This document shows, in pieces, positions 15,413 through 49,560 of a DNA stretch of 64,000 bases. The stretch lies in NCBI RefSeq assembly GCF_900116705.1, contig NZ_FPBP01000004.1, positions 248,001 through 312,000 on the forward strand. The letters run 5' to 3'. Under the pieces are notes generated by a model. It was not told the origin of the DNA. It ran no database searches and saw only the letters and a program-made list of their open reading frames with translations. Origin of the DNA: Halomonas korlensis. Its GTDB lineage: Bacteria; Pseudomonadota; Gammaproteobacteria; Pseudomonadales; Halomonadaceae. The stretch's first letter is position 1. Each line of letters starts with the position of its first letter. Made by a program: the position numbers and the translations under genes.

Positions 15413-18157
<2,745 letters not shown>

Positions 18158-22493: not shown

Positions 22494-23609
22494 TTATCCC
22501 AACAGCGAGGCCGGGTCCAGGCAATCCAGACCGAAGGCGTCTGCCACTGCCGGGTAGGTCACCTTGCCGCCATGGACGTTGAGACCGGCAGCGAAGTGCG
22601 GATCAGCGGCCAGGGCCTGCTTCCAGCCCTTGTCGGCAAGGGTAATGACGAAGGGCATCGTGGCGTTGGTCAACGCCAACGTCGAGGTGCGCGCCACGGC
22701 GCCGGGCATGTTGGCCACGCAGTAATGCACAATGCCATCAACGAGATAGGTCGGCTCGGCGTGTGTTGTCGGCTTGCTGGTTTCGAAGCAGCCGCCCTGG
22801 TCGATGGCCACGTCAACCAGCACGCTGCCGGGTTTCATGTCGGCGAGCATGGCACGCGTGATCAGCTTGGGTGCCGCGGCGCCAGGAATCAGCACGGCGC
22901 CGATGATCAGGTCGGAGTCGCGCACTGCCTCCTCAATGGCATCAGCGGTGGAAAATACGGTCTTCATGCGCCCCAGATAGCGATCATCGAGGGTCTCGAG
23001 CCGCGGGATCGACCTGTCCAGCACCGTGACGTCGGCGCCCAGGCCCAGCGCCATGCGGGCGGCGTTCTCACCGACCACGCCACCGCCGATGACCGTCACC
23101 TTGGCTGGGGGCACACCGGGCACACCGGGTAACAGCACACCGGCACCGCCCTGGGCCTTTTCCAGGCTGTGGGCACCCGCCTGCACGGCCATGCGGCCGG
23201 CCACGGTGCTCATCGGCGCGAGCAGCGGCAGGCCGCCCTGGCGATCGGTGATGGTTTCGTAGGCGATGCAGGTGGCACCGCTTTCCATCAGGCCGCGAGT
23301 GAGCGTTTCCTCGGCGGCCAGATGCAAATAGGTGAACAGCGTCTGGCCCGACGTCAGCCGCGCGACTTCCTCCGCCTGGGGCTCCTTGACCTTGAGGATC
23401 AGCTCGGCGCCGCTCCAGACCCTGGCCACGTCGGCCTCGAGGACCGCGCCGGCGGACGCGTAGTCGGCATCGGTAAAGCCGGCGCCTTCGCCGGCCCCGG
23501 CCTGGACGGTGACCTGGTGGCCGCGGCCGACCAGTTCACGTACCCCGGTCGGTGTCAGGGCGACGCGGTACTCGTGATTCTTGATTTCCTTGGGTACGAC
23601 GATCTGCAT
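22494..23609 (-). CDS. ald: Alanine dehydrogenase
   Basis: NAD-dependent interconversion of alanine and pyruvate plus ammonia. It has 371 residues, the family norm. Catalytic-region motifs [14 protein letters not shown] and LFTYLHLA, the Rossmann motif [20 protein letters not shown] and [10 protein letters not shown] are present. The start is ATG at 23609, after CAGGAGG. A short direct repeat (two copies of GGGCACACC-like sequence near 23113) gives the odd VPGVPP stretch inside an otherwise normal protein. Confidence 0.96.
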
Positions 23610-23757
23610 GGCGGCCTCCTGTGAACTGCTATTGGGTGTGTTTCCTCCTCATTACAGCACAGGCAGTTGATACATGAAGGACCGCTCAACAAGAACAAAA
23701 AACCCCTGAGAAATCACGCTTGATGACCAAACATTCTGCTGTGAATGGATATCGTGA

Positions 23758-23800
23758 CAGAAAGCCTGACTCATCTCGCCTGGCTTCGCCGTCAGGCTTC
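23758..23800 (-). terminator. Probable terminator after the DUF2007 gene
   Basis: On the minus strand GAAGCCTGAC and GTCAGGCTTTC pair across a 20-base loop region that can also fold, followed by TGTC. It lies just past the stop of the DUF2007 gene, in a 195-bp gap before ald (23610-23804) that shows no gene. Confidence 0.55.
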
Positions 23801-23804
23801 TCTC

Positions 23805-24122
23805 TCAGGGCTTCGCTCGCCCACATCGCCAGCAAGTATCGAACACCCCCTCCAGGGCTTCGCCACAGCCGTGACAAGTCCAGCCGGGATTGTCGCTTTC
23901 ACCGGCGAGGGCGGCGTTGATCAACGCCTCGGCGCGCTCACGATTATGCGGCGCCACCCACACTTCCGGCTCACAATCGCCCAGCGGCAACTCACCGGCA
24001 CCGCCACCGAGGGTCATGTTGCGCAATTCGACCGGCATGCCGGTCGCGGCCAGCACATTGCGCAAGTGGCTGACCAGCAGTGCATTGGAATGCGCGAAGA
24101 CGCGCACATACGCAGGCACCAT
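23805..24122 (-). CDS. DUF2007-type protein with C-terminal zinc ribbon
   Basis: 105 residues. The N-terminal part (VRVFAHSNALLVSHLRNVL through EVWVAPHNRERAEALI) resembles the DUF2007 signal-transducing fold. The C-terminus holds two CxxC pairs (CHGCGEAL, CWRCG) that would bind zinc. The start is ATG at 24122, 7 bp after rlmI ends, so it is probably co-transcribed. A longer in-frame start at 24152 would overlap rlmI. Function unknown. Confidence 0.75.
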   Translation of the reverse strand: MVPAYVRVFAHSNALLVSHLRNVLAATGMPVELRNMTLGGGAGELPLGDCEPEVWVAPHNRERAEALINAALAGESDNPGWTCHGCGEALEGVFDTCWRCGRAKP

Positions 24123-24129
24123 GACGGGC

Positions 24130-25326
24130 TCAGTCCCGGAAGACCCGGACACCCAGCGCCTTCAGATAAGCGGTTTCCGGGATCGCCGGATGCACCGGAT
24201 GGTCCGGCCCCTGGTGGCCCTGGAAGATAAGCTGCCCTTGGCGATCCTGATGGCGCACCGCCCCGCGCACGACGTCGATCAGACGCTCCGGCGCCAGGTG
24301 CATGGAGCAGGAGGCCGAAAGCAGCAGCCCGTCGCGACCGAGCAGACGCATCGCCTCGCGGTTGAGCTTGCTGTAGGCGCGCTCGCCGCCGGGGATATCC
24401 TTGCGCTTGCGGATGAAGGCGGGCGGGTCGAGGATCACCACGTCGAACACCTCATCCTCGGCCTTCAGCGCCGCGAGCACCTCGAAGGCATCCCCCTCAC
24501 CGACAGCCACTCGCTCTTGAAGGCCATTGAGAGCGGCGTTCTCGGCGACGCGCTCGAGGGCCGCGCTCGAGGAATCCACGCAGAGCACCTCACTGGCGCC
24601 GTTGGCCGCCGCCTGCACGCCCCAACCGCCCACGTAGCTGAAAAGATCCAGCACCCGCTTGCCGGCCACCAGGCCGTTGAGCCAGGCGCGGTTGGCCCGA
24701 TGATCAAAGAACCAGCCGGTCTTCTGGCCATCGAGCACCGGCGCACTGAACCGCACACCGTTCTCTTCCATCAACACCGGCTCGGCCAGCTCGCCCTTCA
24801 CCACCTCGATCGTCGACTCGAGGCCCTCGAGACGCCGCCCGCTGGTGTCGTTGCGCAGCACCACCACCCGCGGCGACAGCACCTTGTCCAGCGCGTCGAG
24901 CAGCTCGTCCACCACCGCCTGCATACCGGCCGTATTGAGCTGTAGAACCACCACGTCGCCGTAGCGATCGACGATCAATCCCGGCAGCAAGTCACCTTCA
25001 CCGTGCACGAGCCGATAGAACGGCTTGTCGAAAAGCCGCTGACGCAGCGCCAGGGCCTGGTTGAGACGGTGGACCAGCAATGATCGATCCAGGCCCTGCT
25101 TCGGGTCACGGGACACCAGGCGGGCGCAGATGAGCGAATGCGGATTGACGTAGGCCACGCCCATGGCCTTGCCGTTGGCGGCTTCGACCACCACCTGCTC
25201 GCCGGCCTCGATGTCCTTGATCGGCGTCACCGCCATGTCGATCTCGTTGGAGTAGAGCCACAGGTGCCCCGCCTTGAGGCGACGGTCAGCATTTTTCTTG
25301 AGGCGCAGGGAACGGGTCATGGTCAT
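24130..25326 (-). CDS. rlmI: 23S rRNA m5C methyltransferase, RlmI family
   Basis: SAM-dependent methyltransferase of 398 residues (E. coli RlmI 396). The N-terminal PUA-like domain (RRLKAGHLWLYSNEI) is followed by a Rossmann domain with motif I VLDLFSYVGGWGVQAA and motif IV VILDPPAFIRK. The catalytic cysteine region SCSMHL is present. Start ATG 25326, or the in-frame ATG two codons later. The nearest E. coli role is m5C1962 of 23S rRNA; the exact site is inferred. Confidence 0.9.
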   Translation of the reverse strand: MTMTRSLRLKKNADRRLKAGHLWLYSNEIDMAVTPIKDIEAGEQVVVEAANGKAMGVAYVNPHSLICARLVSRDPKQGLDRSLLVHRLNQALALRQRLFDKPFYRLVHGEGDLLPGLIVDRYGDVVVLQLNTAGMQAVVDELLDALDKVLSPRVVVLRNDTSGRRLEGLESTIEVVKGELAEPVLMEENGVRFSAPVLDGQKTGWFFDHRANRAWLNGLVAGKRVLDLFSYVGGWGVQAAANGASEVLCVDSSSAALERVAENAALNGLQERVAVGEGDAFEVLAALKAEDEVFDVVILDPPAFIRKRKDIPGGERAYSKLNREAMRLLGRDGLLLSASCSMHLAPERLIDVVRGAVRHQDRQGQLIFQGHQGPDHPVHPAIPETAYLKALGVRVFRD

Positions 25327-25360
25327 GGGAGAATCTCGTGAAGGGTGAGTCGTTCGGGCG

Positions 25361-26197
25361 TCAGGTCTGGCAGCGAGCGCAGAAAACGCTGGCCCGCTGG
25401 CCCAGGGTCACCAGGCGCAATTCGCCGCCGCAGCGCCGGCAGGCCTGGCCATGACGACCGTAGACGTTGAGCCGCTGCTTGAAGTAGCCCGGCTCGCCGG
25501 TGCCGCCGACGAAGTCGCGCAGGGTCGTGCCACCCTGGGTGATGGCCGCAGCGAGCACCTCGCGTACCGCGTCCGCTAGGCGATCGTAGCGCTGACGGGA
25601 AATGCCGCTCGCCGGCCGGCACGGATCGATGCCGGCCAGAAACAGCGCCTCGGCGGCGTAGATGTTACCCACTCCTACCACCACGGCGTTATCCATCAAA
25701 AACGGCTTCACGGCCAAGCGGCGGCGACGCGAGAACGCGAACAGGCGCGCGCCATCGAAGGCCTCGGACAGCGGTTCGGGACCCAGCCGGGCCAGGCGTG
25801 GGTCGGCGTTGACGCTTCCCTGCAGCCAGTCGACGAAGCCGAAGCGGCGCGGGTCGTGATAGCGCAGTATCCCGCCATCATCGAGCACCAGATCGACATG
25901 GTCATGCTTACGCGGCAGCTCGCCGAGGCGCACCATGCGCAGGCTGCCGGACATGCCCAAGTGCCACAACAGCGTCGACGTGCCATCGCCCTGCCCTGCC
26001 CGGGAGAGCGGCAGCAGCAGATACTTGGCGCGGCGCGACAGCGGGCCGACCCGCGCGCCAATCAGCCGCTCGACCAGGTCCGCGGGCACCGCCACGCGCA
26101 GGCGCGACTCGCGCACGATAACCTCCACGATCTCGCGTCCTTCCACATGGGGAGCGATGCCGCGGCGAGTGGTCTCGACTTCGGGCAGTTCAGGCAT
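25361..26197 (-). CDS. mutM: Formamidopyrimidine-DNA glycosylase
   Basis: Base-excision repair enzyme removing 8-oxoguanine. It has 278 residues. The start ATG 26197 exposes the catalytic N-terminal Pro-Glu after Met removal ([12 protein letters not shown]); the 4-codon-longer reading would block this. The zinc finger at the C-terminus, CRRCGG and CARC, is intact. It lies in the rpmB-rpmG-mutM-rlmI run. Confidence 0.97.
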
Positions 26198-27763: not shown

Positions 27764-29095
27764 ATGTCAACGCTGCCTGGCCCCGGGAGCATCGACCGCA
27801 CGATCATGGACCGCCCAATGGGCCGTCGCATACTTCTCGGCATCAGTGCCGGTATCGCCGCCTACAAGAGCGCAACGCTTGCCCGCCTGCTCAAGCAGTC
27901 GGGTGCCGAGGTGCGCGTGGTCATGACCGAGGGCGCCCAGGCGTTCATCACGCCACTGACCCTGCAGGCCTTGACGGGAGAAGCCGTGCGCACCTCCCTG
28001 CTCGACCCCGACGCCGAGGCCGGCATGGGGCATATCGAGCTGGCCCGCTGGGCCGATACCATCCTCATCGCGCCAGCTACCGCCGATGTGATGGCGCGCC
28101 TGGCCATCGGCATGGCCGATGACCTGCTCACCACCCTATGCCTGGCGAGCGACGCCCACAAGGTGATGGCACCGGCGATGAACCAGGCGATGTGGCGTCA
28201 GCCCGCCACGGCCCGCAACGCGGCACGCCTCGAGGCCGACGGCTGGCGCCTGCTCGGACCCTCGAGCGGCGACCAGGCCTGCGGCGACGTGGGCCCGGGG
28301 CGCATGATGGAGCCCGAGGCGATCCTTGAGGCGTTGCTCTTCATGGCGCCCGAAGCCGCGCCGGCTCAACCAGAGGCGCCGCGGGAGGCCGAGGGCCTGA
28401 CCGTCACGATCACCGCCGGCCCCACCCGCGAGCCACTCGACCCGGTGCGCTATCTCTCCAACCACAGCTCCGGCAAGATGGGCTATGCGCTCGCCGCCGC
28501 CGCCGCCTCGCTCGGTGCCCGGGTCAGGCTGATCAGCGGGCCGGTCGCGCTGCCCACGCCCGAGGGGGTCGAGCGATTCGACGTGGAGACGGCGCTCGAC
28601 ATGGCCGAGGCGGCCGACCGCCTCGCCAAAGACAGCGACATCTTCATCGGCTGCGCGGCGGTGGCCGACTACCGCGCCGAAGCCGCCGCCGAGCACAAGA
28701 TCAAGAAGCGCGAGGACGACGAAGGGCTGACCCTGCGCCTGGTCAAGAATCCCGACATCATCGCCTCCGTGGCCTCATTGCCCGAAGCGCAGCGCCCGCT
28801 GGTGGTGGGGTTTGCCGCCGAGACCCGCGAGCTCGAGACCTACGCCCGCGACAAGCTGCTGCGCAAGAAGCTCGACATGATCGTCGCCAATGACGTCTCG
28901 CGCGCCGGAGGCGGCTTCGGCACCGACGACAATGCCGCTCTGCTGCTATGGCGAGAAGGCCGCTGGCATAACGGCGCGTGGCAGGGCAGCGCCCGTCTGG
29001 GCCGCGACGACCTGCCTTCACAACCCAAGTCGCAGCTGGCGCTCAATGTTATCCGACGCGCACTGCATTGCCTCCAGGCAAGGCGCTCCCCCTGA
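27764..29095 (+). CDS. coaBC: Phosphopantothenoylcysteine decarboxylase / synthetase
   Basis: Bifunctional coenzyme A biosynthesis enzyme (Dfp). The CoaC part has [11 protein letters not shown], the PAMN motif in [10 protein letters not shown] and [10 protein letters not shown]. The CoaB part begins near residue 212 with [20 protein letters not shown]. It has 443 residues, against about 406 in E. coli. The extra N-terminal residues suggest that ATG 27806 or 27818 ([12 protein letters not shown]) may be the real start; no start has a convincing ribosome site. Followed 25 bp later by dut. Confidence 0.95.
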
Positions 29096-29120
29096 CACCC
29101 ACCACGACCCGGACGATCCG

Positions 29121-29600
29121 ATGCCCAACACCGACCCGCGGCCAGCCGCCCGCCCGCGCCTGGCCATCAAACTGCTCGACCCCCGCATGGCTGACTACCT
29201 GCCCCACTACACGACCGACGGCTCCGCCGGCATGGACTTGCGCGCCCTGCTTGACGCCCCGCTGGCGCTTTCGCCAGGCCAGTGCGAGCTGGTGCGCACC
29301 GGGCTCGCCATGCACCTCGACGACCCGAACCTCGCCGGCATGATCCTGCCGCGCTCGGGGCTCGGCCATAAGCACGGCATCGTCCTCGGCAACCTGGTGG
29401 GCCTGATCGATTCTGACTATCAGGGCGAGCTGATGGTGTCGGTGTGGAATCGCAGCAATCGCGCCTTCACCCTCGAGCCCTTCGAGCGCCTGGCGCAGTA
29501 CGTCATCGTGCCCGTGGTGCAGGCCGAGCTCGACGTCGTCGACGACTTCGCCAGCAGTGCCCGTGGCGATAATGGCTTCGGCAGCTCGGGAAGACTCTGA
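29121..29600 (+). CDS. dut: Deoxyuridine triphosphatase (dUTPase)
   Basis: Hydrolyses dUTP to dUMP, keeping uracil out of DNA. It has 159 residues. All five family motifs are visible: [38 protein letters not shown] and the C-terminal GDNGFGSSG. The start is ATG at 29121 ([20 protein letters not shown]). The coaBC-dut-slmA region is conserved in gammaproteobacteria; here algC and argB are inserted before slmA. Confidence 0.97.
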
Positions 29601-29643
29601 TGTTTCAAGCCGTCAACACAAGCAGTCAACAGGAAGTGACACC

Positions 29644-31041
29644 ATGACCCAACAACGCCCCCAGAGCGTTCCCGCCTCGATCTTTCGCGCCTACGACATT
29701 CGTGGCATCGTCGACGAGACGCTCACCGAGGCAAGCGTCGTGGCGATCGGCCACGCCATCGGCAGCGAAGCCGCCGCCCGTGGCGAATCCACCGTGGTGG
29801 TGGCCCGCGACGGCCGCCTGTCGGGTCCTCGCCTGCAGCACGCCCTGACCCGCGGGCTGACCGCGAGCGGTCGCGACGTCGTCGACATCGGCATGGTGCC
29901 GACCCCGGTGCTTTATTACGCGACCCATGTGCTCGACGGCACCGCCTCCGGCGTGATGGTCACCGGCAGCCACAATCCGCCCGACTACAACGGCTTCAAG
30001 ATCGTGCTCGGCGGCGAGACGCTTTCCGGCGAGGCCATCACCGCCCTCTACCAGCGCATCCAGCAGGGCGATCTGCTCGAGGGCCAGGGCAGTGTTCGCC
30101 AGGAAGATGTTCGCGAGGCCTACCTGGCGCGCATCCTCGGCGACGTCAGGCTCGCCCGGCCGCTCAAGGCGGTGGTGGACTGCGGCAACGGCGTGGCCGG
30201 CGAACTGGGCCCCCAGCTCATCGAACGGCTCGGGGTCGAGACCCTGCCGCTGTTCGCCGAGATCGACGGCACCTTCCCCAACCATCATCCGGACCCCGGC
30301 AAGCCCGAGAACCTCAAGGACCTGATCCGCGAGGTGCAGGCGAGCGGCGCCGACATCGGCCTGGCCTTCGACGGCGACGGCGACCGCCTGGGCGTCATCA
30401 CCCCCAGCGGCAAGCTGATCTACCCCGACCACCTGCTGATGGCCTTCGCCGAGGACATGCTGTCGCGCAACTCCGGCGCCAGGGTGATCTTCGACGTCAA
30501 GTGCACCGGCAACCTGACGCGGGTGATCGAGGAGGCCGGCGGCGAGCCCGAGATGTGGCGCACCGGCCATTCGCTGATCAAGGCACGCATGAAGGAAACC
30601 GGCGCCCTGCTCGCCGGCGAAATGAGCGGCCACATCTTCTTTCGCGAGCGCTGGTACGGTTTCGACGACGGGCTCTATGGCGCCGCCCGACTGCTAGAAA
30701 TCCTGTCGAAGCAGGCCGATGATGCCGACACCTTCTTCGCCCGCTACCCCCAGGACCTGAGCACGCCCGAGATCAACATCACCGTCACCGACGAGACCAA
30801 GTTCGACCTGGTGGCCAGGCTGGCCCGCGAGGGCGACTTCGGCGACGACGGCATCAAGACCACCCTTGACGGCATTCGCGTCGACTATCCGGACGGCTGG
30901 GGCCTGTGTCGCGCCTCCAACACCACGCCGGTGCTGGTGCTGCGCTTCGAAGGCAAGAACGAGGCCGCGCTCGCGCGTGTCCAGCGCCGCTTCGGCGAGG
31001 CCCTGTCCCGAGTCGCCCCCGAGATCGTCCTGCCTTTCTGA
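29644..31041 (+). CDS. algC: Phosphomannomutase / phosphoglucomutase (AlgC type)
   Basis: 465 residues (P. aeruginosa AlgC 463). The phosphoserine loop VTGSHNPPDYNGFK puts the catalytic Ser at 109. The metal loop is FDGDGDRLG and the sugar-binding loop GEMSGHIFF. It makes mannose-1-P or glucose-1-P for exopolysaccharide and LPS. The start is ATG at 29644. dut-algC-argB order is also seen in pseudomonads, which supports the name. Confidence 0.93.
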   Translation: MTQQRPQSVPASIFRAYDIRGIVDETLTEASVVAIGHAIGSEAAARGESTVVVARDGRLSGPRLQHALTRGLTASGRDVVDIGMVPTPVLYYATHVLDGTASGVMVTGSHNPPDYNGFKIVLGGETLSGEAITALYQRIQQGDLLEGQGSVRQEDVREAYLARILGDVRLARPLKAVVDCGNGVAGELGPQLIERLGVETLPLFAEIDGTFPNHHPDPGKPENLKDLIREVQASGADIGLAFDGDGDRLGVITPSGKLIYPDHLLMAFAEDMLSRNSGARVIFDVKCTGNLTRVIEEAGGEPEMWRTGHSLIKARMKETGALLAGEMSGHIFFRERWYGFDDGLYGAARLLEILSKQADDADTFFARYPQDLSTPEINITVTDETKFDLVARLAREGDFGDDGIKTTLDGIRVDYPDGWGLCRASNTTPVLVLRFEGKNEAALARVQRRFGEALSRVAPEIVLPF

Positions 31042-31050
31042 AGCGGCGTC

Positions 31051-31083
31051 TCACGCTCCACGATTCATGTTTCACGTTTCATG
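31051..31083. repeat. Short degenerate direct repeats before argB
   Basis: Related CACG(A/T)TTCATG and TTCACGTTTCATG units follow each other in the 59-bp algC-argB gap. They are AT-richer than the surroundings, and neither a gene nor a clear promoter is visible. Confidence 0.5.
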
Positions 31084-46005: not shown

Positions 46006-46443
46006 ATGAAGGTCAGCGAACTGGCACGTCTGGCCGGCGTTACCGCCGAAACCGTGCGTCACTACACCCGAGAAGGACTCCTGCACCCCGAACGCGACCC
46101 GGAGAACGGCTACCAGCTGTTCGGGCAGGTCGACCTGGAGCGGCTGCGCTTCATCCAGCGCGCCCGCACCCTGGGCTTCGGCGTCGCCGAGATCCGCGAC
46201 ATCCTGGCCCACGCCGACCATGGCGACTCGCCCTGCCCCTTGGTGCGCGACCTGCTGGCCAGCCGACTCCCCGAGATCCGCGCGCGTATCCAGGAACTCG
46301 AAGCGCTGGCCTCGCGCATGGAACAGGCCCTCGATGCCTGGGCCGAGATGCCGGACGGCACCCCGGACGGCCACAGCCTGTGCCGATTGATCGAAAGCTT
46401 CCCCGAACCATTGGCCGCCGACATCGGCAAGGAGACCTCATGA
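46006..46443 (+). CDS. MerR-family metal-responsive regulator
   Basis: 145 residues. N-terminal winged helix [20 protein letters not shown], then a long dimerisation helix ([21 protein letters not shown]). Two cysteines could bind metal: Cys77 (SPCPLV) and Cys126 (HSLCRL). Cys77 aligns with the divalent-metal position of ZntR/CadR, while copper sensors have Ser there. The paired cysteines near 114 of ZntR are absent. The gene overlaps copA by 4 bp (ATGA), which suggests copper, so the inducer is unclear. Confidence 0.85.
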
Positions 46444-49010
46444 CCATCCGCCACTCGCTCGAGCGCCAGGTCCCGGGCATGAACTGCCAAGGCTGTGTCG
46501 CCAATATGCGCAAGGCCATCCAGGCCCGGGACGCGCAGGCCGACGTCACTGGCACCCCCGCCGAGAAGCGCCTGGACGTCGCCACCACCTTGGATGGTGA
46601 TGCCCTGGACGCGGCATTGCGCGAGGCAGGCTATCCGCCCGGCGCTCCCGGAGAAGACACCGCCCCGACACCGTCCGAGACCACCGAGGCCACCGCCGCT
46701 CAGGCCCCACCCGCGACCGCGGTCAGCGACACGCGCGCCACGACGCAGCGATTGTCGATCAGCGGGATGACCTGCGCCAGCTGCGTGAAGAGCGTGCGCG
46801 AGGCCCTGGCGCGTACGCCCGGCGTGGTCGGCGCGGAGGTCAACTTCGGCACCCACACCGCCCAGGTGAGCGGCACTGCCGACCCCGATGCCTTGATCCG
46901 CGCCGTGCGCGACGTGGGTTACGATGCCAAACCCATCGTCGACATGCGCGAGGCCGAACAGGCTCGTGCCGAGAAGGATGCGAAGGCCTATCGCCAGCGC
47001 ATCCGGGGCAGCATCCTCTCGCTGACGCTTGCCGTACCGCTGATGGCCAGCATGTTTTTCTTTCATCCTCACCCGATGGGTAGCGGGCGCCTCTACTGGT
47101 TGGTGGTCGGCGTGTTGACCCTGGCCGTGATGGCAGGCCCAGGGCGGCATTTCTTCGTCAACGCCTGGAAGAACCTCAAGCACCACCAGGCCAACATGGA
47201 CACCCTGATCGCCATGGGTACCGGCACTGCCTGGCTCTACTCGATGGCGGTGGTGGCCTTCGCGCCCTGGCTGCCCGAGGTGGCCCGGGGCATTTACTTC
47301 GAGGCCTCGGCGATGATCATCGGCCTGGTACTACTCGGCAATGCCTTGGAGCTACGCGCCCGGGGTCGAACCAGCCAGGCCCTCAAGCGTCTGCTCGACC
47401 TGCAGAGCCGCACCGCCCGGGTGATCCGCGACGGCGAGGAGCGCGAGGTCGAGGTCGACGAGGTCCGCCAGGAGGACCATATCCGCGTGCGCCCAGGCGA
47501 GCGCCTGCCGGTGGACGGCATGGTCACCGAGGGCAGCAGCTATATCGACGAATCGATGCTCACCGGTGAGCCGCTGCCAGTCGCCAAGGGCGAAGGCGAC
47601 GAGGTCAGCGCCGGCACCGTCAACGGCAAGGGCGGCCTGGTTTATCGTGCCACCCGCGTAGGGGCTGACACCCGCCTGGGACAGATCACCGAACAGGTAG
47701 CCAGCGCTCAGAACTCCCGCCCGCCCATCGGTGAACTGGCCGACAAGGTATCGAGCATCTTTGTACCCACGGTGATGATCATCGCCGTGATTACTGCGCT
47801 GGCCTGGTTTAACTTTGGTGCCGAGCCGAGGGTGATCCACATGTTGGTCACCGCCACCACGGTGCTGATCATTGCCTGCCCCTGCGCTCTCGGCCTGGCC
47901 ACGCCGATCTCGACCATGATCGGTGTGGGCAAGGCGGCCGAGCACGGCGTACTGGTGAGAAGCGGCGAGGCCCTGCAGACCGCCAGCAAGCTCACCACCC
48001 TGGTGGTGGACAAGACCGGCACCCTGACCGAAGGCAAGCCACGGGTTACCGAGGCCGAGGTCATCGAGGGCGACGAGCAAACGCTACTGGGCCTGGTCAC
48101 CGCCCTGGAACGTGGCTCCGAGCACCCACTGGCCGCGGCCCTGATGAGCCATGCCGCCGCGCGTGACGCCAAGACCGTCGAGATCACCGATTTCGATACG
48201 GTCACCGGCGGCGGGGTCAAGGCAAAAAGCGCCGATGGCCAGTCGCTGCTGCTGGGCAATGCCCGCCTGTTGGAGGAAGCCGGCATCGACCTGGCCACCG
48301 GCCGCCGGGTCGCCGCTGAGCTGGAAGAAAAGGCGCGCACCGTGGTGTATCTCGCCGTGGATGGCCGGCTGGCCGCCGTTTTCGGTATCAGCGACCCGCT
48401 GCGCCACGACACCATCGAGGCGGTGAAACGCCTGCAGGCCGATGGCCTCAAGGTGGTGATGCTCACTGGCGACAATGCCCACACCGCCGCAGCCATTGCC
48501 CGGGAAGTCGGCATCGACGACTTCCGCGCCGGCCTGTTGCCCGAGGACAAGCACGCCGAGATCGAACGCCTGCAACAGGCCGGCGAGGTCGTCGGCATGG
48601 TCGGTGATGGCATCAATGATGCGCCGGCCCTGGCCCGGGCTAATGTCGGCTTCGCGATCGGCCAGGGCACCGACGTGGCCATCGAGAGCGCCGGCATCAC
48701 GCTGGTGCGCGGCTCGCTGCACGGGGTCGCCTCGGCCATCGAGATCAGCCGGGCGACACTTGCCAATATCAAGCAGAACCTGGTGGGGGCCTTCGGCTAC
48801 AACGCCCTGGGCATCCCCATTGCGGCCGGGGTGCTCTATCCCTTCACCGGCACCCTGCTCTCGCCGATGATCGCCGGGGCCGCCATGTCGCTGTCGTCGA
48901 TCACCGTGGTGAGCAACGCCAATCGGTTGCGCCTGTTCAAGACGCGCCGCGAAACCGCGCGCGAGCATGACGACATCGCGCCTGAATACGAGAAGGAGGC
49001 TGCCGCATGA
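46440..49010 (+). CDS. copA: Copper-exporting P1B-type ATPase
   Basis: 856 residues. Two N-terminal metal domains carry GMNCQGC (Cys16, Cys19) and GMTCASC (Cys112, Cys115), joined by a Pro/Thr/Ala linker. Ion path CPC in IACPCALG, phosphorylation site [11 protein letters not shown], and ATP-hinge GDGINDAP are intact. YNALG and [12 protein letters not shown] near the C-terminus are Cu(I)-specific signatures. The start is ATG at 46440, after AAGGAG. It removes cytosolic Cu(I). Confidence 0.95.
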
Positions 49011-49087
49011 GCTGGATCGTCAATCTCGCCGGCCTGGCGTTGATCGCCCTGATCGTCTGGTGGTTCTGGGGGCCGACACAGCGCTAG
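49007..49087 (+). CDS. 26-residue single-span membrane peptide coupled to copA
   Basis: Encodes [20 protein letters not shown] plus WGPTQR and a stop. It starts inside the copA stop (ATGA overlap) and has a near-perfect ribosome site, AAGGAGG, 7 bases before the ATG. One hydrophobic helix, a Trp cluster and a basic end. It resembles, from memory, the membrane anchor at the start of small cupredoxins found beside copA in other proteobacteria. It is therefore either a genuine micro-protein or the remnant of such a gene. Confidence 0.6.
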
Positions 49088-49128
49088 CTTGACTATGCTG
49101 AAGGCAACCCCCGGATCGCGAGGCACCC

Positions 49129-49560
49129 ATGACCCACCCCTCTCCGAAACTAAACGGTGTGCTGGAAACCGCGCTCTACGTGGAAGACATGGACCGAGCG
49201 CGGCGCTTCTTCGAGGACGCGATGGGCCTGGAACCCTTCACGGCCGACCACCGCTTCACGGCCTATGACACCGGCGCCGGCACGGTGCTGCTGCTGTTCC
49301 TGTGCGGCGAAACGCTGGAGACCGTGGTGCTGCCCGACGACATGGGCACCATCCCGCCCCATGACGGCGAAGGCCGAGTGCATCTGGCCTTCGCCATCGC
49401 TGCCCGAGACCTCGCGGCCTGGGAAGGACAACTCGCGGATCATGATATCGCCATCGAGGGGCGCACCCACTGGCCGCGAGGCGGGGAAAGCGTGTATTTC
49501 CGCGACCCCGACGGACACCTGCTGGAGTTGGCGACACCCGGCGTCTGGCCGAACTATTAA
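49129..49560 (+). CDS. VOC (glyoxalase/bleomycin-resistance-fold) protein
   Basis: 143 residues. LNGVLETALYVEDMDRARRFF begins the first beta-alpha-beta-beta-beta unit, and GGESVYFRDPDGHLLELATPG ends the second, with a likely metal-binding Glu in LLELA. Substrate unknown. The stop codon overlaps that of the convergent yitT-type gene (49557-49560). Confidence 0.85.
   Translation: MTHPSPKLNGVLETALYVEDMDRARRFFEDAMGLEPFTADHRFTAYDTGAGTVLLLFLCGETLETVVLPDDMGTIPPHDGEGRVHLAFAIAARDLAAWEGQLADHDIAIEGRTHWPRGGESVYFRDPDGHLLELATPGVWPNY

Follow-up and report, generated by a model that had tools for sequence, protein, structure and literature searches.

A 26-codon gene overlapping copA in Halomonas korlensis and its probable relationship to the membrane anchor of CupA-type copper chaperones

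Gene organization and translation signals at the copA locus

The window, a 64,000-nucleotide stretch of the Halomonas korlensis genome, contains four plus-strand genes in succession: a MerR-family regulator gene (46006..46443), copA (46440..49010), a 26-codon open reading frame (49007..49087) and, 3' of it, a gene for a VOC/glyoxalase-fold protein (49129..49560; PF00903). copA encodes an 856-residue Cu(I)-exporting P1B-1 ATPase with two N-terminal HMA domains. Its product matches PF00122, PF00702 and, twice, PF00403 in Pfam, and scores 614 bits against the NCBIfam model TIGR01511 (cut-off 397). The regulator gene overlaps copA through an ATGA at 46440-46443. The regulator itself falls below the cut-off of every NCBIfam model listed, including CueR, ZntR and CadR, and has cysteines at residues 77 and 126 only. 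CueR uses two cysteines in its C-terminal loop, and the metal site of the window regulator looks unusual by comparison.

The 26-codon frame starts inside the copA stop codon, as a preliminary description of this DNA had stated. The ATG start codon of the peptide (49007-49009) and the TGA of copA (49008-49010) share the tetranucleotide ATGA (49007..49010), and a TAG (49085-49087) closes the frame after 26 codons, all on the plus strand. A Shine-Dalgarno sequence, AAGGAGG (48993..48999, plus strand), lies 7 bases upstream of the ATG. The initial impression that this site is better than that of most genes is borne out by a comparison of 31 ATG starts in the window, defined as ATGs that lie between -10 and +2 relative to the stop codon closing a frame of at least 150 residues, on both strands, and that open a new frame of at least 20 residues. 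All 7 bases of the motif are present at the peptide start and at no other, and the start of copA, which overlaps the merR gene, is second best with 6 bases. On the minus strand, a 96-residue open reading frame (48836-49126) overlies the peptide.

The encoded peptide is a stand-alone anchor helix of fewer than 50 residues that is genetically linked to a pump. It yields no weighty match in Pfam or NCBIfam (best E 0.27 and 0.24, far under the cut-off), and Cupredoxin_1 (PF13473) in particular has no Pfam match in it. Because it contains no cysteine and its single methionine is the start residue, the peptide is without copper ligands. The sequence 3' of it holds no cupredoxin remnant, scoring 29 against a maximum of 46 for 20 shuffles. 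The peptide is hence not a CupA, as it has neither the domain nor the ligands, but it looks like a derivative of the CupA kind.

Conservation of the short form and selection on its codons

When 201 genomes of the host family were searched, 180 had a match at E up to 10; 150 of these loci, one per genome, were examined, and the weaker matches were mostly not taken in. The short form with its own stop, 23-34 residues in length, is found at 149 of the 150 loci, and the exception, L171, has no copA in reach. A stricter parse classified 147 loci as short and one (L171) as long and left two 23-residue peptides (L166 and L168) unparsed, whereas the raw parse (147 short, 3 long) read through the stop of the 24-residue frames of L009 and L010 and also that of L137 (given as 44). 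A copA-like frame ends upstream of the peptide at 148 of the 150 loci (all except L006 and L171), and the ATGA overlap with the copA stop is kept at 136. The upstream AAGGAGG, assessed at 148 loci, has 6 or 7 exact bases in 98, 5 in 37, 4 in 11 and none in 2. In L006 (genome G199), the peptide start is preceded not by copA but by an opposite-strand protein-coding sequence, presumably an IS200/IS605-type transposase gene, which makes an insertion between copA and the peptide likely; such an insertion would break the coupling.

The 3' neighbour of the peptide varies across the host family between the VOC gene, an opposite-strand gene and other sequence. The last of these directly follows the peptide in L011, L012, L016 and L022, so that the VOC gene is not a constant neighbour. 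Therefore, the partner gene of the peptide is copA, not the downstream gene.

Comparison of 17 codons, from V5 to W21, in 68 disjoint nearest pairs of the host family indicates that the peptide is under protein-level purifying selection. pS is 0.298 and pN is 0.056, which gives a pN/pS of 0.19 (bootstrap 95%, 0.15-0.24); this value was obtained without L166 and L168, in which the motif lies too near the chosen start, and also without L171, and it becomes 0.187 when L171 is included. The all-pairs ratio, taken over more saturated and non-independent comparisons, is 0.28, or 0.38 for pairs with pS below 0.5. The other two plus-strand frames give ratios of 1.5 and 1.9, and the minus-strand frames give 1.36, 0.34 and 2.5. 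The value of 0.34, which is higher than 0.19, is taken as a by-product of the constraint on the coding strand. The open reading frame at 49007-49087 is real. The preliminary description had named a short frame that is not conserved in close relatives, or equal rates of synonymous and non-synonymous change, as grounds to abandon a real peptide; instead, the frame is conserved and non-synonymous changes are approximately five times rarer per site.

The helix with and without a cupredoxin domain

Outside the host family, Gammaproteobacteria have the same helix behind copA in two versions, one stand-alone and one fused to a cupredoxin of approximately 95 residues. A class search provided 50 loci (L051-L079 without the repeat L071, and L237-L258), of which 29 are short and 21 long, and a copA-like frame ends upstream in 46 of them (all except L066, L069, L244 and L249). 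Helix-sized matches were fetched for this set. Matches that looked like chance, having long open frames and higher E-values (e.g. G424, G237, G221 and G345), were left out, as were second matches in one genome (G447 and G399), G415 and G290, the last of which later proved to be a real long form (L407). A phylum search with the profile A1 returned 30 loci; five repeat host-family loci, and the other 25 consist of 20 long and 5 short forms, one of the short forms (L289) being short by frameshift. The cupredoxin of L289 is out of frame with the anchor within a clade of long forms, and an assembly error is possible in this draft genome. The 80 named loci comprise 52 short and 28 long forms, with a copA-like frame directly upstream in 73. 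The short form occurs in Halomonas, Billgrantia, Vreelandella, Modicisalibacter, Chromohalobacter and Marinobacter, among others, and the long form in Alcanivorax, Alloalcanivorax, Marinobacterium, Pseudomonas sp. sp1636, Thalassolituus, Microbulbifer and Zhongshania, among others.

Two long forms match Cupredoxin_1 (PF13473) in Pfam, the first with 89.9 bits and the second with 63.1 bits. In the PDB, the first long form matches CupA (2MRY and 4F2E) at E 1.4e-15, with the Cys, Cys, Met and Met of CupA aligned. It also matches a cation-ATPase chain (4F2F) at E 8.5e-10, which we take to be the cupredoxin domain of pneumococcal CopA. A database search with the long form found 644 relatives at E up to 1e-3; the named ones among the 120 listed are plastocyanin or cupredoxin domain proteins. 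G9 and F20 do not vary across the 30 helices, short and long, of the A1 alignment. By alignment, the window helix is homologous to the N-terminal helix of these cupredoxin-bearing relatives, and the earlier remark that small cupredoxins beside copA start with a similar anchor is borne out by the long forms, their PF13473 match and their match to the CupA structure.

The class, phylum and named-locus searches all start from the helix and are silent on how often copA lacks it. A control that started from CopA alone took the 29 top-ranking CopA loci from genomes other than the host's, without use of the peptide for selection. The short form is found in 13, the helix with a cupredoxin in 10 and neither within 220 bases in 6; in two of these six (L404 and L413), a helix gene lies on the same contig, approximately 2.4 and 1 kb further on. 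Within the host family, all 30 genomes with no or a weak peptide match have a P-type ATPase match to the CopA half, which is only weak in G086. In G105 and G143, the CopA half is 68% and 67% identical over nearly the whole length, and the peptide is present in both. G022 carries, 102 bases behind its CopA (53% identical), a helix that is more distantly related, and the remaining 27 of the 30 loci have no such helix within 220 bases after CopA. Among these 27, six CopAs of genus g3 (L182, L184-L187 and L189), 52-54% identical, are without a helix downstream, as is a CopA fragment from G094 of the same genus (L206; 66% identical over 152 residues). Because these g3 CopAs lack the helix, a fairly close pump can work without it. 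Judged from these sequences, the presence of the helix mostly follows the type of CopA and is not universal even among fairly close CopAs.

In which direction did the two forms change? A tree of 102 C-terminal CopA parts, 66 from short loci (with L289 counted as short) and 36 from long loci, implies at least 14 switches between the forms in a quick search that left many weak branches; at least five are forced by well-supported branches. The host family lies in a single all-short group of 37 rows together with one other row (L299). If only cupredoxin losses are allowed, 16 suffice (L236 left out, midpoint root, L289 as short). Loss of the cupredoxin is the better reading because repeated gain of the same domain is unlikely, and transfer of copA with its neighbour between lineages is a possible alternative to loss. 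In L243, the 15-residue stretch RFICQMQMYRGSLIV lies behind the short form in another frame, approximately 157-202 bases after the short-form start, and matches the cupredoxin end of L238, its sister in the CopA tree (support 99). L243 thus appears to show a cupredoxin loss caught in progress, with the anchor intact. Of 196 short loci, 193 gave no cupredoxin trace at the threshold used when the 420 bases following the helix were scanned, a set that includes approximately 15 repeats (L259-L268, L270, L275, L280, L286 and L288) and counts L289 as short; the three loci with a signal are L243, the frameshifted L289 and, weakly, L043. Outside L243, the loss is probably old.

We infer that the change ran from the long to the short form. 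In all likelihood, the peptide is what remains of a CupA-type chaperone after all but the anchor was lost, and its gene is at the same time a maintained one. The preliminary description had offered a decayed cupredoxin that kept only its anchor and a genuine micro-protein as alternatives. The two are compatible: derivation by loss of the cupredoxin domain supports the former, conservation and purifying selection support the latter, and both parts hold.

Proposed function beside CopA and alternative explanations

In a set of 186 distinct short peptides, which counts L289 as short, the residues N6, G9, I13 and I16 are conserved in 184, 181, 170 and 176, respectively. Computed for residues 5-17, the conservation moment amounts to 6.19 (p 0.014) for the short form and 6.18 (p 0.031) for the long form, with a nearly equal direction of the conserved face (-153 and -148 degrees); these are upper estimates, given that the peptides were collected by similarity and W19 and F20 were partly forced by the parsing pattern. 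The helix therefore appears, by this modest test, to have one conserved face that consists of N6, G9, I13, I16 and F20. The mean difference between helices is 0.204 for short versus 0.296 for long forms at a CopA distance of 0.5-1, 0.318 versus 0.365 at 1-1.5 and 0.359 versus 0.358 at 1.5-2.5, the means being taken over non-independent pairs without L236, L289 and one unparsed long row. For short forms outside the host family, the values in the same ranges are 0.348 (7 pairs), 0.355 and 0.395. The slower pace belongs to the host family, whereas outside it the short helix is approximately as variable as the long one or slightly more so (0.395 vs 0.358). Overall, the short-form helix does not appear clearly relaxed relative to the long form.

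Lysine or arginine precedes the helix in none of the 186 distinct short peptides and follows it in 119; in the long form, the numbers are 4 and 60 of 62. The preliminary description is confirmed with one correction, namely that the end beyond WWFW comprises very few residues in most relatives and is not basic in all of them. For both forms, the positive-inside rule suggests an N-out/C-in topology. The C-terminus of P1B pumps such as CopA is located in the cytosol, and a direct fusion to it would invert the helix, which may explain why the helix stays a separate gene. The N-out/C-in topology also agrees with a cytosolic cupredoxin as in CupA, whose domain is cytosolic in our reading of its exchange with the repressor CopY, as given in a 2017 study (PMC5646241). 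Five short forms, namely L272, L282 and the Marinobacter loci L362, L365 and L372, have two or three adjacent histidines at the end of a 13-17-residue tail, a hint that metal may be contacted on the side of the tail within that branch.

What could a membrane helix without copper ligands contribute to a copper pump? We propose that the 26-residue product is a single-span inner-membrane protein, the anchor helix of a CupA-type chaperone that was kept after the cupredoxin was lost. The ATGA overlap and the strong ribosome site would couple its translation to that of copA, so that the peptide would be made in step with CopA. It would insert N-out/C-in, and its conserved face, capped by W18, W19 and W21, would pack against the membrane domain of CopA. 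As a bound accessory subunit, the peptide could stabilise CopA or tune its turnover, by analogy with KdpF or sarcolipin. A CupA-type anchor would always have doubled as a docking part for CopA and would remain useful without the chaperone. We consider this account as a whole, from the kept anchor and its coupling with CopA to the docking on CopA as an accessory subunit, to be probable by a modest measure. The wider proposal that a one-helix subunit of Cu(I) P1B ATPases arose repeatedly, whenever a chaperone anchor outlived its copper-binding domain, could equally well prove right or wrong.

The same helix may instead be a biogenesis factor that aids the insertion or folding of CopA, without staying as a lasting subunit and without altering turnover. 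Coupled translation would produce it where and when CopA is inserted, and a conserved face suits a transient contact equally. Nothing specific speaks against this explanation, although an anchor held in common with CupA-type chaperones fits docking on the working pump slightly better, and we regard it as unlikely but worth keeping in mind. We give distinctly less weight to a different partner, whereby the helix would anchor or recruit a separate copper chaperone or membrane protein and its position behind copA would only secure co-expression. The histidine tails hint at metal handling on the tail side, and 7 of the 80 named loci have no copA-like frame directly upstream of the helix; however, the presence of the helix mostly follows the type of CopA, and no CupA-like domain in trans is seen in the stretches around the two PF13473 matches of the host genome.

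Could the peptide be a functionless relic of a cupredoxin gene that has not yet decayed? Its origin by domain loss and the remains of a cupredoxin end after the L243 short form fit such a relic. A pN/pS of 0.19, a helix that is intact even though 193 of 196 short loci show no cupredoxin trace, and an overall variability no higher than in the long form make it very improbable. The strong ribosome site and the overlap could also mean that the act of translation alone matters, through protection of the mRNA end or prevention of readthrough, with the peptide irrelevant; amino-acid identity is kept, with N6 in 184 and G9 in 181 of 186 peptides, while synonymous sites vary far more freely, and we hold this explanation to be more improbable still. 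A hydrophobic type I toxin has only the size and hydrophobicity of the peptide in its favour and is contradicted by the fixed position behind copA and by the helix common with the chaperone, which reduces its likelihood to nearly nothing. Thus, docking of a kept anchor helix on CopA is the explanation that we favour.

Two further candidates were tried and rejected. One is a CupA domain supplied in trans by the host genome, which has two PF13473 matches, one of them above the cut-off. Five fetched stretches, both matches included, score at most 45 in any frame against the CupA-type domain, for which the long forms, bar L171, score at least 175. The other is compensation by extra HMA domains in CopA. 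At least two motifs, counted with a wide pattern that admits GASC and GATC motifs, are present in 46 of 80 short versus 11 of 38 long loci (Fisher p 0.005), but outside the host family the numbers are 6 of 30 versus 11 of 38 (p 0.57). Because the difference vanishes there, the excess is a trait of one lineage and no general compensation.

Tiny membrane proteins accompany other P-type ATPases. Sarcolipin and phospholamban are regulins, that is, one-helix regulators of the P-type ATPase SERCA; they are eukaryotic and act on a Ca2+ pump, and their likeness to the window peptide is one of architecture. CcoS/FixS (PF03597) resembles the peptide in its ATGA overlap with an ATPase gene and in an aromatic W-x-F-F-W end, but differs in its acidic tail and its length (67 residues in L207 and L208). 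It is absent from the Pfam matches of the peptide and reaches an hhalign probability of 9%, and we rejected it as a homologue and kept it as an analogue only. In L207 and L208, an ATPase gene is followed by a gene for a CcoS-like one-helix protein with the same ATGA overlap as that of copA and the peptide; judged by this neighbour, the P-type ATPase is probably of the CcoI kind. Pfam also contains a KdpF model, which has no match to the window peptide at E up to 1. KdpF is a 30-residue membrane peptide encoded together with the P-type ATPase KdpFABC, a K+ pump (PMC3618439, PMC10654040). The window peptide is similar to KdpF in being a tiny membrane peptide with a P-type ATPase partner gene, but it belongs to a P1B pump, its gene comes after the pump gene and its origin is different.

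We know of no small membrane subunit described earlier for Cu(I) P1B ATPases. If the proposed account is true, the peptide would be the first, as far as is known, and the chaperone anchor would be a pump-docking part and not a mere tether. The host family and scattered relatives would then have a pump component outside the coverage of Pfam and NCBIfam. We found no description of the short form in the open-licence literature.

The nearest described relatives are the chaperones themselves. CupA is described as a chaperone with a membrane anchor from which CopA receives Cu(I) (PMC5552934, PMC7558416). CupA of Streptococcus pneumoniae (2MRY and 4F2E; PF13473) has, like the window peptide, one N-terminal membrane helix and is encoded with copA; unlike CupA, the peptide is without a cupredoxin and copper ligands, and it is likened to CupA through the helices of the long forms and not through CupA's own anchor. 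In S. pneumoniae, deletion of the CupA leader leads to higher copper sensitivity, and in 2017 the authors regarded a role of the leader in helping CupA to meet CopA as possible but speculative and described the sequence of CupA as one that only a few streptococci possess (PMC5646241). The short form bears on this speculative role, in that a leader persists under selection without the chaperone attached. Available excerpts of two papers report merR-copA clusters of Alteromonas with the gene order merR-copA-cupredoxin protein (PMC8478169) and eight PF13473 proteins with an N-terminal membrane helix in Rhizobiales (PMC5552934). The window resembles the Alteromonas clusters in its merR-copA order, whereas the Alteromonas and Rhizobiales proteins, as presented in those excerpts, carry the full cupredoxin domain. 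Cupredoxin proteins beside copA are already in print in these papers, and the excerpts contain no treatment of the anchor alone or of the short form.

Elsewhere in the host genome, positions 12000-40000 of contig C31 (L432 and L433) contain no helix scoring above 49. This region encodes two more CopA-like ATPases, at 23590-26184 on the minus strand and 28755-31073 on the plus strand, and an open reading frame from position 17341 that may, at a guess, encode a multicopper oxidase.
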